In this document: one piece after another, positions 53,358-57,675 of the stretch
Layout: each line of letters opens with the position of its first letter
Position numbering within the stretch: the first letter of the stretch is position 1
Origin: Hesseltinella vesiculosa
Taxonomy: Eukaryota > Mucoromycota > Mucoromycetes > Mucorales > Cunninghamellaceae
Direction of reading: 5' to 3'
Length of the DNA: 64,000 nucleotides
Assembly (NCBI GenBank): GCA_002104935.1
Contig: MCGT01000050.1
Coordinates: 1-64,000 of the forward strand
Translations under genes and position numbers: made by a program
Notes under the pieces: model-generated
What the model was told of the DNA's origin: nothing
The model's database searches: none
What the model saw: only the letters and a program-made list of their open reading frames with translations

Positions 53358-53563
53358 GACCAATTACTGTGGCAGCTGTCAATGGTGAAAGAGAAAGAAA
53401 AAAAAAAAATGTTTTCTGCTTTTTGGATTTTTCAGCAGTTTGCTTTTTGGCTGGCCGTGAAACGGAGGCTTTTGATTGGCTCTGCACACAGTGGAGTGCT
53501 GAAGCACTATGGAAAATTTGAGAAGAAAAAAACAGCGCAACCAATCAAATAGCCAGCTGCATA
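53358..53563. other. Upstream region of the two-HMG-box gene
   Basis: A-rich with an A12 run near 53399. No gene. Confidence 0.4.
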
Positions 53564-53672
53564 TGCGCTACTAAGCGCACTAACATGATCCGCTTGCAGA
53601 AAAGAATTTGTCGCATCTTTCTGCAAAGCATGTTATTTTTACCACCTTGGATTTATAGACCAAGCATGGTAA
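53564..53672. repeat. Cluster of three hairpins upstream of Fanzor B
   Basis: Three inverted repeats in about 110 bp: TGCGC/GCGCA at 53564-53579; TTGCAGAAAAGA/TCTTTCTGCAA at 53594-53626 (one bulge, 10-nt loop); TTACCACCTTGG/CCAAGCATGGTAA at 53639-53672. Could be a transposon end or a structured RNA region; no direct evidence of either. Confidence 0.6.
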
Positions 53673-54079
53673 GGCATAGGGAGAGGCATGCGTGAAATAG
53701 ACAGAATGATATGGATAGTCGCAACTTCTCCAATCTGGAGCATTTTTGTTTCACTGAGGATGACTCTGGGGCCTGAATTTTTTTTTTTCGTGGTTTGGTT
53801 TGCCAGGCAGTGTTAAGTTTTTATTTAAGAAGCACAGTAAAATGAGCAATAGAGATAGGCAAAGAGTGCTACCTTTATCATTGATGGTACGCTACTTCAT
53901 TTTATATTTCAAAAAGAAAGGTACGTAGTAAAAAAAGGGCTAAGGATGTGATTGGCGGTCATGCTCACTGGCATTGGCATTGGTTTGATCTTCCGCAACA
54001 CGCGATTCTTTTTGTTTGTTTGTTTATCTAGGCTCTTCTATCTTTTTCTTTATTTCTGCTCATTTTCTATCTTTCCCTG
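53673..54079. other. 5' flank of Fanzor B
   Basis: No gene. A TTTG-rich tract (TTTGTTTGTTTG) near 54010-54025 lies in the probable leader. Confidence 0.4.
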
Positions 54080-57000
54080 ATGCAATCGCTTCTTCAATCC
54101 GTCTACGTAACTCTGTGCCACATCCCTGAAGAAGATTTCCGCCGGGCGTTGCCTGATCAGTTGGGCCAAGCTTGGATGACCACCGAACAATTCTACACTG
54201 TTTGGTCACAAGCAAAAGTCTATCGTCAAAGTAAGTCATCCATCACTTCCATCATGTCTTTTTCTTTACCCATCTTCGTAGGACGGGAAACTGGGCCCAC
54301 GCCACAACGACGTGCCCAACAACAGGAACAAAACGATCGCGCCGAGGGGAGACGGCTGCGCCAAGAAGATGAGCGAAATCCTGATGCTGTGGGACCGTGT
54401 GCCACATGCGGCCAAATGGGACACTGTTCGTCTGCCAGCCGCCTCTGTCCTTACCATCGCATGAACAAGAAGGATTACATCAACGAAATGATGCCAGGTG
54501 GTGAGCGCTACACGATAAAAAAAAGCTTTGAAGATGCCGTCCGGCAACCGTTCAAGCTCGCTTTGAAGCGCAACATAGAATCGACCAGCGCCTGCAACAA
54601 GAACATCCTTTTCCGCCTCCAATTGTTTATCAACCATTTCGCTCTCACTCACCCGTCTGACTTTAAAAGCATCATGATCAGCCAGAACGGTCTCCTGTCC
54701 ATCTCGCAGCTCATCTATCCCCGCAACCCGCGGCGACCGGGGATCACCAACGCTCACATCCTGCGAAGCCTTCCTCCCACCTTTCTGCCTCACTGGAACC
54801 AGTTTGTCCGCGACCACCCAAACATCGTGTACAACCCCAACGACCACCACGGCATGGATCCGCTCGACAATGCAGCCCTACTCATTCCTGCTGATGACCG
54901 CAGCCTTCACTTCCATCACCCGCATAAATTCTATGGAGGTACTTTTGGGCCATGTTTGTCAACGCTTGCCACCGCTTACTCCAATTGCTTGGTGATCGAC
55001 TTTGAGAAAAAGGTCAAGAAGTTTATTCGATTCTCCTTTGCCATCACGGATGTCCAAGTAAGTTTTTTAAAAGGGCGGTACCAAAAAAGGGAATGTGTTC
55101 TGACTTTTTTTTGTCTCTTTCAGATCCCTCATATTGACCAGCAGGTGGATGACATCTACACAAACTTCGCAGAAAGACCCTCCCACCCTCAATCAGGGGT
55201 CACATCTGGATCGGCCACAAACACTGTCCCTGGCGTGTCTGCCGAAGAAGCGGCGATTGCCGATGTGAAGGCGAAAACACTGGCCTTGAAACCCCACTAC
55301 GTTGGTAAATTGACATCAACAACTCTGTCCCGAAATCCTAGCAGTGCCTTGCTTGTCTACACCAAACATCAACAAGCAATACGAGCAGTACAAGTCCCAG
55401 CCCAATGCCAACCCCAAAAAATGCCCAAAGCTTACCATCCTTCCTGAGCCTCACTTTGGACGCCGATTCATCCCCATCTTACCCGACACGATCAAATATC
55501 TAGCCGAATGCGATGCTCCTGGTCACGTGGCTACCATTGACATTGAAACAAACAACGACAACTCTGGTGTACCCGACGCCGCATTCATCCGTGCCTTGCC
55601 CTTGTTTTTCAAGGTGTTCCACATGGAGAAGTTCGACTTTGGCAGGCCTGGGTACGGGAGGTAAGTTTCGCAGACACCAAAAAAAAAAAAAAAAAAAAAG
55701 AACAACTTCCGACTTTTTTCTTCTTCTTCTCACCTAGTGTCCAGGACATGCTTGAGGGTATACTATACAACCGTCCACTGTTTGCTTGCCACATTTGGTG
55801 TGATGGCGTTTCGTGCTGCTTTGAATTTATTCGTTTGCCAACCACGCATCGCCCAACGATGAAGCTGCCCAGCCTGGACCACTGGGATACCGAACTGGTA
55901 GAACGCTTCGACATGGTCGCCGTCGATCCAGGCCGCCGTGCCATCGTCACCGGAAGCTATGGCACACCTTATCCACTTTCTATGCTCCCTGAAACCCGGG
56001 ATGACGAAGACTCTGCAGGTGAAGGTGAACCCGATAACGATAATGACGAAGAACAAATGGCTATCGACACCCCATGTCCTATTCGTACTGCTCAGCCTGC
56101 ACATCAACATCAGGACTTTGACAACGCCACTGGTCAGCACTGATATGGAACAAGGAAATCTCTCTATGCCTATGATTGACGATGCCGATCCTACCACCCC
56201 GATCCCCCAGTCTCACCATCTGCCTTACCGAGTCATCAAGGTATCAGCAAAGGAATACCGCTCGCAATGTGGAACGCAGCGACGAATTCAGCAATTGGAA
56301 TCGACGCAAGGTTTCCACGACATACTCCTTCCGAGGTCAGCAAATACCATTTCACCAGATGGAGGCTGCCATCCCATCCCACCGAACCACCAGCCCCGCC
56401 GAATATGCCACTCGAATCCAATACTTGATCGATCGTCTCCCGCTCTTCTTCGACTTTTACGGCCTTCAGCATTCCATCGACCGCTTCAATGCTTACAGAG
56501 GGCGCCAGCGGGGTGTTGCATACGTTGCCAGTGTTCTTGCTGGACTGTCCAAGAAGTATGTCAAGTCCCAGCGCAATGTGCGTGGCCACCGCAAACGTAC
56601 CCACCGCAATCGGCGCAAGCGTCAGAAGAAAGCTCGGAAGAAAAAGGCCTTCAAGATCAGCAATGCCAAGAAGGCGATGGTGGAACACCTTGCCACAATG
56701 GATATTGCTATAAAGAAGATCGAGGATTTAGTGAACTGCTGTGCTGGCTCGACATTACCTGGGGCGATGGATACTTTGGTTGCAACATTGCAAACCATGC
56801 GCACCCAACGCGACCTGGACCATGACATCCGCTTTACTCTGATCAGCCAAATGGAAGAAAAGAGGCAAGTCATCACGGCTTTCAGGAGGTCCACCAGGTG
56901 GTGCTGATTTTTTTTTTCCAGTGGTAGACCTGCGCCACCAATGAAACCAACCACACGAATGCGCCATGGCGTGACAAAATACCCCAGCCAAAGAATTCCA

Positions 57001-57441
57001 TTGATCCTCTTTGGTGATGGCCTCAAGGGCCGGAAGGTCGCCACCCCTTTGAAAAAGCAACTTCCTGGTTCGTCCTCCCTGGTGTTCAACCAATTGGAAG
57101 ACCGGCAACGACAGGGCAAGCTTTCTGTTATCTCGCTAAATGAGTTCAAAACAAGCAAGGTGAGTAAAAAAAAAAAAGAGGTGTGTCAATAGCAACGAGG
57201 CGACTCATTCTTTTCTTCAACACAGCTCTGCTCCATGTGCCATGGCCCAACGAAGAGCCCAGCCATGAATGGTAGCAAGGTGTATGGGCTTTTGCGCTGC
57301 AGTTCTTGTAATGTCACCTTTGACCGGGATGTGATGGCGGCCTGCAACATGGTGTCTATTGGCCAGCACTTTTTCCAACACAAGCAACGCCCCCTGGCCT
57401 TTTGCCCACGCCGACGGCCTCCAACCTCTCCTACCGCTTAG
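54080..57441 (+). CDS. Fanzor-type (TnpB-like) RNA-guided nuclease, copy B; possibly decaying
   Basis: Coding segments: 54080-54230, 54282-55057, 55124-55304, 55342-55660, 55738 to about 56130, 56130-56310 (shifted frame), 56310-56888 (shifted again), 56922-57159, 57226-57441. The N-terminal zinc knuckle is CATCGQMGH..SRLCPYH. A long helical recognition region follows. RuvC-I is MVAVDPGRRAIVTG (Asp at about 539), then RVIKVSAKEYRSQCG, a conserved Fanzor segment. A basic helical insert (RKRTHRNRRKRQKK) leads to LILFGDG, the alternative catalytic Glu in SLNEFKTSK, the zinc ribbon (CSMC..CSSC), and RuvC-III FDRDVMAACN. The TS-x-x-C4-zinc-RD arrangement is diagnostic of Fanzor/TnpB. Two frame changes and two very short introns (37 and 33 nt) suggest mutation or mis-modelling. 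Family call firm; integrity doubtful. Confidence 0.88.
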
Positions 57442-57675
57442 TTTTCATATTTATTCACCAAAGCAACCCTGCAAAAGGGGTTACCGTCTGCTCTGGCAAG
57501 AACGTGTTTAATGCTTTTATCCGGTAACTGGTGCTTTTAGCCAACACTTAACACACGTTCTGATTGGTAACGGAGTTTTCTTTTTTTCCATAGTGGAGGG
57601 CATAATGGCTCTTTTTTTTCTTTTGTTCCTTTTTTTTTTTTTTGTTAATTCGTGTTTGTCATTTGTGTTCATTAA
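57442..57675. other. 3' flank of Fanzor B with long-loop hairpin
   Basis: A 7-bp perfect inverted repeat, GTTACCG (57480-57486) and CGGTAAC (57522-57528), lies 40-90 bp after the stop; a third related GGTAACGG follows near 57567. TnpB/Fanzor guide (omega) RNAs are often encoded at or beyond the 3' end of the gene, so this is a candidate place, but no RNA is shown. Confidence 0.4.

Follow-up and report, generated by a model that had tools for sequence, protein, structure and literature searches.

The window analysed here, a stretch of 64,000 nucleotides from a contig of Hesseltinella vesiculosa, contains a decayed member of a new, multi-copy family of Fanzor1-type elements in this fungus. It is best read as a non-autonomous, CACTA-ended Fanzor1 element; the family is new, and Fanzor-carrying elements as a kind are already known. 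Fanzors are eukaryotic relatives of the CRISPR nucleases. The element is flanked by an HMG-box gene and a gene for acyl-CoA oxidase, which confirms the neighbours that an earlier note on this DNA had called an HMG protein and POX1, and the first ATG in the first long frame of the acyl-CoA oxidase gene is found 80 bp past the element. Its parts are as follows.

53501..53504, + strand: left flank GAAG, its GA exactly seven bases before TATGG
53505..57595, + strand: whole transposable element, 4,091 bp, ends from copy alignments and inverted repeats
53505..53516, + strand: left terminal inverted repeat CACTATGGAAAA, 12 bp, from copy-end comparison
54080..54230, + strand: exon 1 of the Fanzor gene, from alignment with 19 other copies
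54282..55057, + strand: exon 2, with an N-terminal zinc-knuckle-like motif at 54398-54448
55124..55660, + strand: exon 3, with one frame-breaking length difference private to the window copy
55738..56864, + strand: exon 4, with the RuvC-I DPGRR at 55925 and two private frame-breaking length differences
56928..57159, + strand: exon 5, preceded by a GC-AG intron, with the alternative catalytic Glu at 57142
57226..57441, + strand: exon 6, with the C4 zinc ribbon (TNB) and the RuvC-III Asp at 57328
57457..57595, + strand: conserved 3' noncoding end, candidate omega RNA (conservation; modest covariation)
about 57466-57525, + strand: consensus hairpin in the candidate omega RNA (covariation model)
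57584..57595, - strand: right terminal inverted repeat CACTATGGAAAA, 12 bp, from copy-end comparison
57596..57599, + strand: right flank GAGG, the opening bases of the predicted guide side

Gene structure and decay of the window copy

The six exons are separated in the window copy by four GT-AG introns and one GC-AG intron, called from splice sites, reading frame and comparison among 20 copies. A GC-AG intron 4 (window 56865) occurs in all 20 copies, and intron 3 (window 55661) is of this type in some of them. Every RuvC, alternative-Glu and zinc-ribbon motif reported in the earlier note was found again where it had been placed, on the + strand inside 54080-57441 and distributed over three reading frames, with codons for the RuvC-I Asp at 55925 (DPGRR), the alternative Glu at 57142 (NEFKTSK), the RuvC-III Asp at 57328 and the zinc-ribbon Cys at 57229, 57238, 57298 and 57307. 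The catalytic and zinc residues are invariant across the 20 copies, apart from two that lack the RuvC-I codon: the alternative Glu, the four Cys and the RuvC-III Asp are present in 20/20, and the RuvC-I Asp is kept in 18/20. The N-terminal zinc knuckle that had also been proposed stands as a Cys-His motif, C-X2-C-X4-H-X7-C at 54398-54448, unchanged in all 20 copies, but its spacing is only knuckle-like and differs from that of the textbook CCHC zinc knuckle. Exon 2, which encodes it, has relatives among more distant Fanzor families of the same genome.

As it stands, the window copy is a decayed gene that cannot encode the complete protein. After splicing, its frame holds 15 premature stops (16 with the regular terminal one), beginning after residue 416, and none of the 19 other fetched copies shares its three one-base length differences, which lie in exons 3 and 4.

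Identity as a Fanzor

The signature described for Fanzors, in excerpts of PMC10711439, is a DPG at RuvC-I combined with a Glu placed six residues ahead of the zinc CxxC. The window gene has both, as DPGRR and as E-FKTSKL-C in the spliced reading, followed by the C4 zinc ribbon and then RD, and it is carried by a eukaryotic transposable element, that is, a repeat family with common ends and four copies with target duplications. Of the profile check against Fanzor and TnpB models that had been suggested earlier, the Pfam side came out positive, with TNB (PF07282) scoring 31.4 bits in the last exon of the window copy and 35.2 bits in the intact sister copy L022 against a cut-off of 26.3, whereas matches to the NCBIfam TnpB models were far under their cut-offs (first: 17.4 bits against 350).

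With a six-member profile, the direct matches of the window group to solved structures are weak and fall in the TNB part, the best being the Fanzor2 L79 (E 0.00043), with SpuFz1 at E 0.23. Within this genome, a second group of Fanzors gives E 8.4e-7 with SpuFz1 in a profile search, mainly over the stretch that separates RuvC-I from the zinc ribbon, and E 0.002 with GtFz1. In a profile comparison the two groups align with 99.9% probability (E 1.6e-33) over 252 columns, a stretch that includes the alternative Glu, the Cys of the zinc ribbon and the final Asp and leaves RuvC-I outside. The identification of the window gene as a Fanzor, already made in the earlier note, is supported by the DPG and alternative-Glu signature, the TNB domain and the profile chain to SpuFz1. 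We provisionally call it Fanzor1-type; it is carried by a non-IS607-like element with inverted repeats, and the second group has SpuFz1 as its best match. A protein search scoring 8000 candidates, in a collection that may hold few fungi, gave no relative outside the genome itself at E 0.001, and a viral scan, of a collection that again may hold few fungi, gave six pattern matches with no relative among them.

Copies in the genome and selection

Searching the fungus's own 27-Mb genome with the exon 4 frame gave at least 99 matches, 23 of which, the window included, are at 79% protein identity or more; exon 2 gave at least 85 matches and the TNB model at least 46, many of them in other Fanzor families. 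Twenty copies align at 88-98% identity over about 4.1 kb end to end within unrelated flanks (four of the 20 served as Blast queries), and these alignments stop sharply at CACTATGGAAAA...TTTTCCATAGTG. What had been taken for a lone gene is carried inside a 4.1-kb repeat, of which the genome has 23 copies scattered over unrelated locations. Shorter, internally deleted relatives (L029, L030 and L031) also occur, and would therefore need help in trans. In a search for an empty site, the right flank of the window copy occurred once in the genome, with no second matching site.

Of the 20 copies fetched, ten are open, encoding 999-1013 residues (L010, L011, L012, L014, L015, L019, L022, L023, L025 and L028), and the window copy and nine others are not. 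The ten open copies have a mean dN of 0.030 and a mean dS of 0.124, a ratio of 0.24, and are maintained by purifying selection. The earlier choice between an autonomous relic and a domesticated gene is accordingly replaced by a decayed window copy in a family of which ten of the 20 fetched members are open and selected. A lone or domesticated gene is rejected on the strength of the repeat family, the unrelated flanks and the broken copies.

The genome is rich in Fanzors, with at least two deeply different groups (DPGRR, and DPGV/DPGM) and several subfamilies. Many distant Fanzor matches are located within a few kb of contig ends (C1, C7, C10, C12, C26, C32, C45, C51 and C62). Subtelomeric placement of these other families was considered and rejected: nine contig ends of about 400 bases showed no telomere repeats in the first 150 and last 60 bases inspected, so these ends are taken as assembly breaks, maybe at repeats.

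Ends, flanks and target duplications

Copies of the close family end precisely on the right, and many are cut short on the left. A GA follows the right end in 22 of 23 close-family copies, the exception being L026; this count leaves out diverged ends and the deletion derivatives (L029-L038), among which several right ends agree with GA and L029 and L033 disagree. On the left side, GA is found exactly seven bases before TATGG in 12 of the 17 ends scored, a set that omits ends truncated further, and other offsets reach at most 3. In all 14 placeable cases, counted by eye, the GA is preceded by C or T.

Perfect duplications starting with GA flank L014 (10 bp), L018 (12 bp), L019 (12 bp) and C1:181k (11 bp), and the complete CACTATGG left end is absent from all four. 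As a control for the first three, flanks of different copies were paired with each other in 380 combinations, and the longest match was 7. The full-length copies L023, L025 and L028 have an exact 4-bp GANN duplication, which is mismatched in others; in a set of nine copies, 9 of the 18 letters agree (permutation p 0.10), and in a set of eleven, which adds L014 and C1:181k, 13 of 22 agree (p 0.008). The flanks of the window copy, GAAG versus GAGG, form no clean duplication. Ragged 5' ends and variable duplications are known from CRe-1,2,3 and MCi-2, so this behaviour is not new.

A sister family, 49-51% identical to the window family in two comparisons, has the ends CACTACGGG and CACTAGGGG. In the four copies read, CA follows the right end each time, and GCCA stands shortly before the left end, again in 4/4. 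A truncated copy of this family (C66) has a duplication of at least 8 bp.

Read by eye, the left junction of L026 partly repeats the copy's own left end in tandem, and that of L019 contains a 13-base filler repeating the adjacent target. Both look as if they had been finished by template switching.

The 3' noncoding end

Between copies, the mean difference over the final 150 bases of the element is 0.028; the corresponding values are 0.111 for intron 5 and 0.136 for exon 6 third positions, so that the 3' noncoding end is roughly four times as well conserved as the intron and third-codon sites nearby. Long identical blocks at this end are common to the window family and the sister family. In the consensus hairpin, four pairs carry changes in both bases where shuffles give 1.1, and 3 of 500 shuffles reach four, the model being scored on the same nine-sequence alignment that produced it. 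Further pair types in the hairpin, one of five measures, showed no excess (11 versus 11.4 in shuffles), nor did an earlier two-helix model show excess covariation, and an RNA consensus of 18 ends is weak. Single-sequence folds of the 3' end are not or hardly better than those of shuffled sequence, and Rfam gave no match to it. By analogy with known systems and from the constraint, the 3' end likely encodes an omega RNA. For the 5' leader, conservation does not exceed that of intron 1 or of the third positions in exon 1, and we draw no conclusion from it.

Transposon class and mobilisation

The inverted repeats are of CACTA type, with CACTATGG here and CACTACGGG and CACTAGGGG in the sister family, and these CACTA-like ends suggest mobilisation by a CACTA-type transposase. 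The ends of Chapaev and Transib transposons also resemble those of the window element. Among frames scanned with Pfam on both strands of the element, only TNB scored above its cut-off and none matched a transposase, and the antisense and other frames had no Pfam match at all; the earlier observation that no transposase lies beside the gene is borne out for the element itself within the reach of Pfam. Elsewhere in the genome there are seven matches to the EnSpm-type transposase (PF02992). One of them, at 58.3 bits (G000:C46:131037-131558), is on the window's own contig, outside the window. A search for an autonomous partner by exact end pattern gave 47 places against 24 in the control, and the paired matches that were located are all known Fanzor copies, so that single matches are meaningless; a second end-pattern search gave 110 places, 100 of them listed, against 191 in the control. 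Among the matches listed, end patterns did not link CACTA-type ends to any of the seven EnSpm-type matches.

Two other classes were rejected. A Helitron is opposed by the single partial PF14214 match in the genome and by the symmetrical inverted repeats at the element's ends. The MuDR-type Fanzor elements have a 9-bp target duplication (PMC3627910), and the window family shows no constant duplication of that length, having 4 bp, 10-12 bp or none.

Proposed mechanism and alternatives

We consider it probable that the element is a non-autonomous DNA transposon with CACTA-type ends that carries a Fanzor1 gene and, 3' of it, probably its own omega RNA, and that it is retained or spread by cutting and mobilised in trans. 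Intact copies would supply a Fanzor-omega RNA complex whose guide would be the host sequence just right of the element; this complex would cut the matching empty site beside a short target-adjacent motif, predicted to be YGA, and repair of the cut would lead to retention or spread of the element, while insertion itself would be the work of a separate enzyme acting in trans. In favour of this explanation are the Fanzor signature with its profile chain, the repeat family with sharp common ends, the open copies under selection, the conserved 3' end, the GA at the flanks and the internally deleted relatives. Several results weigh against it: among the end-pattern matches listed no transposase with such ends was found, duplications of 10-12 bp together with truncated left ends are ill-suited to plain cut and paste, the 4-bp duplication of full-length copies is weak (9/18 letters, p 0.10), the omega RNA folds no better than shuffles and is unmatched in Rfam, and the direct match of the window group to SpuFz1 is weak at E 0.23.

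A less probable alternative is replicative copying anchored at the 3' end, in which the terminal repeats would serve for binding only, whether one-ended, rolling-circle-like or target-primed on an unspliced template. It would account for the precise right and often truncated left ends, for the long duplications sitting on truncated copies (L014, L018, L019, C1:181k and C66 of the sister family) and for left-junction filler that, by eye, looks copied from the target in L019 and from the element's own left end in L026; a like pattern is described for Chlamydomonas CRe-1,2,3 and Mucor MCi-2 in PMC3627910. Against it, perfect 12-bp inverted repeats suit a cut-and-paste element, and the genome holds one partial Helitron-type match only. 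Retroposition of a spliced RNA is opposed by the fetched copies, which align through all five introns. We think it very improbable that the Fanzor, as the sole protein of the element, itself drives the spread without a dedicated transposase, by RNA-guided breaks beside a family-specific motif (YGA in the window family, GCCA in the sister family) and repair that would copy the element from its precise 3' end and so leave ragged 5' ends and long duplications.

Two further readings concern the gene. That the window copy is intact and its three frame breaks are errors of sequencing or assembly is unlikely: nine of the 19 other fetched copies are also not open, so decay is common in the window family, even though all three breaks are of one base, the catalytic and zinc codons are unchanged and the whole element is only 1.3% distant from its nearest copy. 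That the host has domesticated the Fanzor gene, or retains it for a function of its own with the repeats as passive duplicates, could explain the dN/dS of 0.24 among open copies, but is hardly credible given the unrelated locations, the common boundary at the inverted repeats, the target duplications of some copies and the fact that half of the 20 fetched copies are broken.

Comparison with known Fanzor systems

SpuFz1 of Spizellomyces punctatus (PDB 8gkh) has 633 residues in a single open reading frame and a measured CATA motif (excerpts of PMC10432273), and its element has inverted repeats, 17 full-length copies and putative TA duplications (PMC3627910). The window family resembles it as a fungal Fanzor1 with DPG-type RuvC and TNB, carried by an element with inverted repeats, but its protein is about 1010 residues long and encoded in six exons, and its YGA motif is a prediction where CATA was measured. 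This length also exceeds the "up to about 800" residues given for Fanzor1 in excerpts of PMC10711439. PpFz1 of Parasitella parasitica, for which RNA-guided cutting, a cyclophilin-binding RuvC insertion and an ATN motif are reported (excerpts of PMC11423790), is likened to the window family by description only, as a Fanzor1 of a fungus; its sequence was not among the solved-structure matches of the family.

MCi-2 (Mucor) and CRe-1,2,3 (Chlamydomonas) are Fanzor1 elements with precise 3' and ragged 5' ends, and duplications of about 11-12 bp in MCi-2 and 7-19 bp in the CRe elements (PMC3627910). The window family is like them in these ends and in being without a complete transposase of its own. 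Its CACTA-like inverted repeats set it apart from MCi-2, which has no recognisable inverted repeats, and from the CRe elements, whose ends are common with Helitrons, and its duplication, unlike theirs, begins with GA. CACTA/EnSpm transposons (CMCT) mostly have CA..TG ends, and their duplications measure 2-5 bp (excerpts of PMC12730594); the window element shares the CACTA...TAGTG ends, but is without an internal transposase and has truncated copies with 10-12 bp duplications. In the literature searched, which had few subscription papers, we found no CACTA-ended Fanzor.

A single genome offers 23 related Fanzor-only elements, with ten of 20 fetched copies open and a predicted guide that differs per copy; the dinucleotide at the flank is GA in one of two sister families and CA in the other. 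Because predicted guides differ per copy and end motifs per family, the family is of value as a test bed in which one can ask directly whether the flank motif is the target-adjacent motif, and whether an intact copy restores or protects insertions.

Along the element itself, the 5' third (window 53560-55000) is far less diverged between copies than the 3' third, at about 0.03 versus 0.1 per base, as if the 5' parts had been homogenised or were younger.
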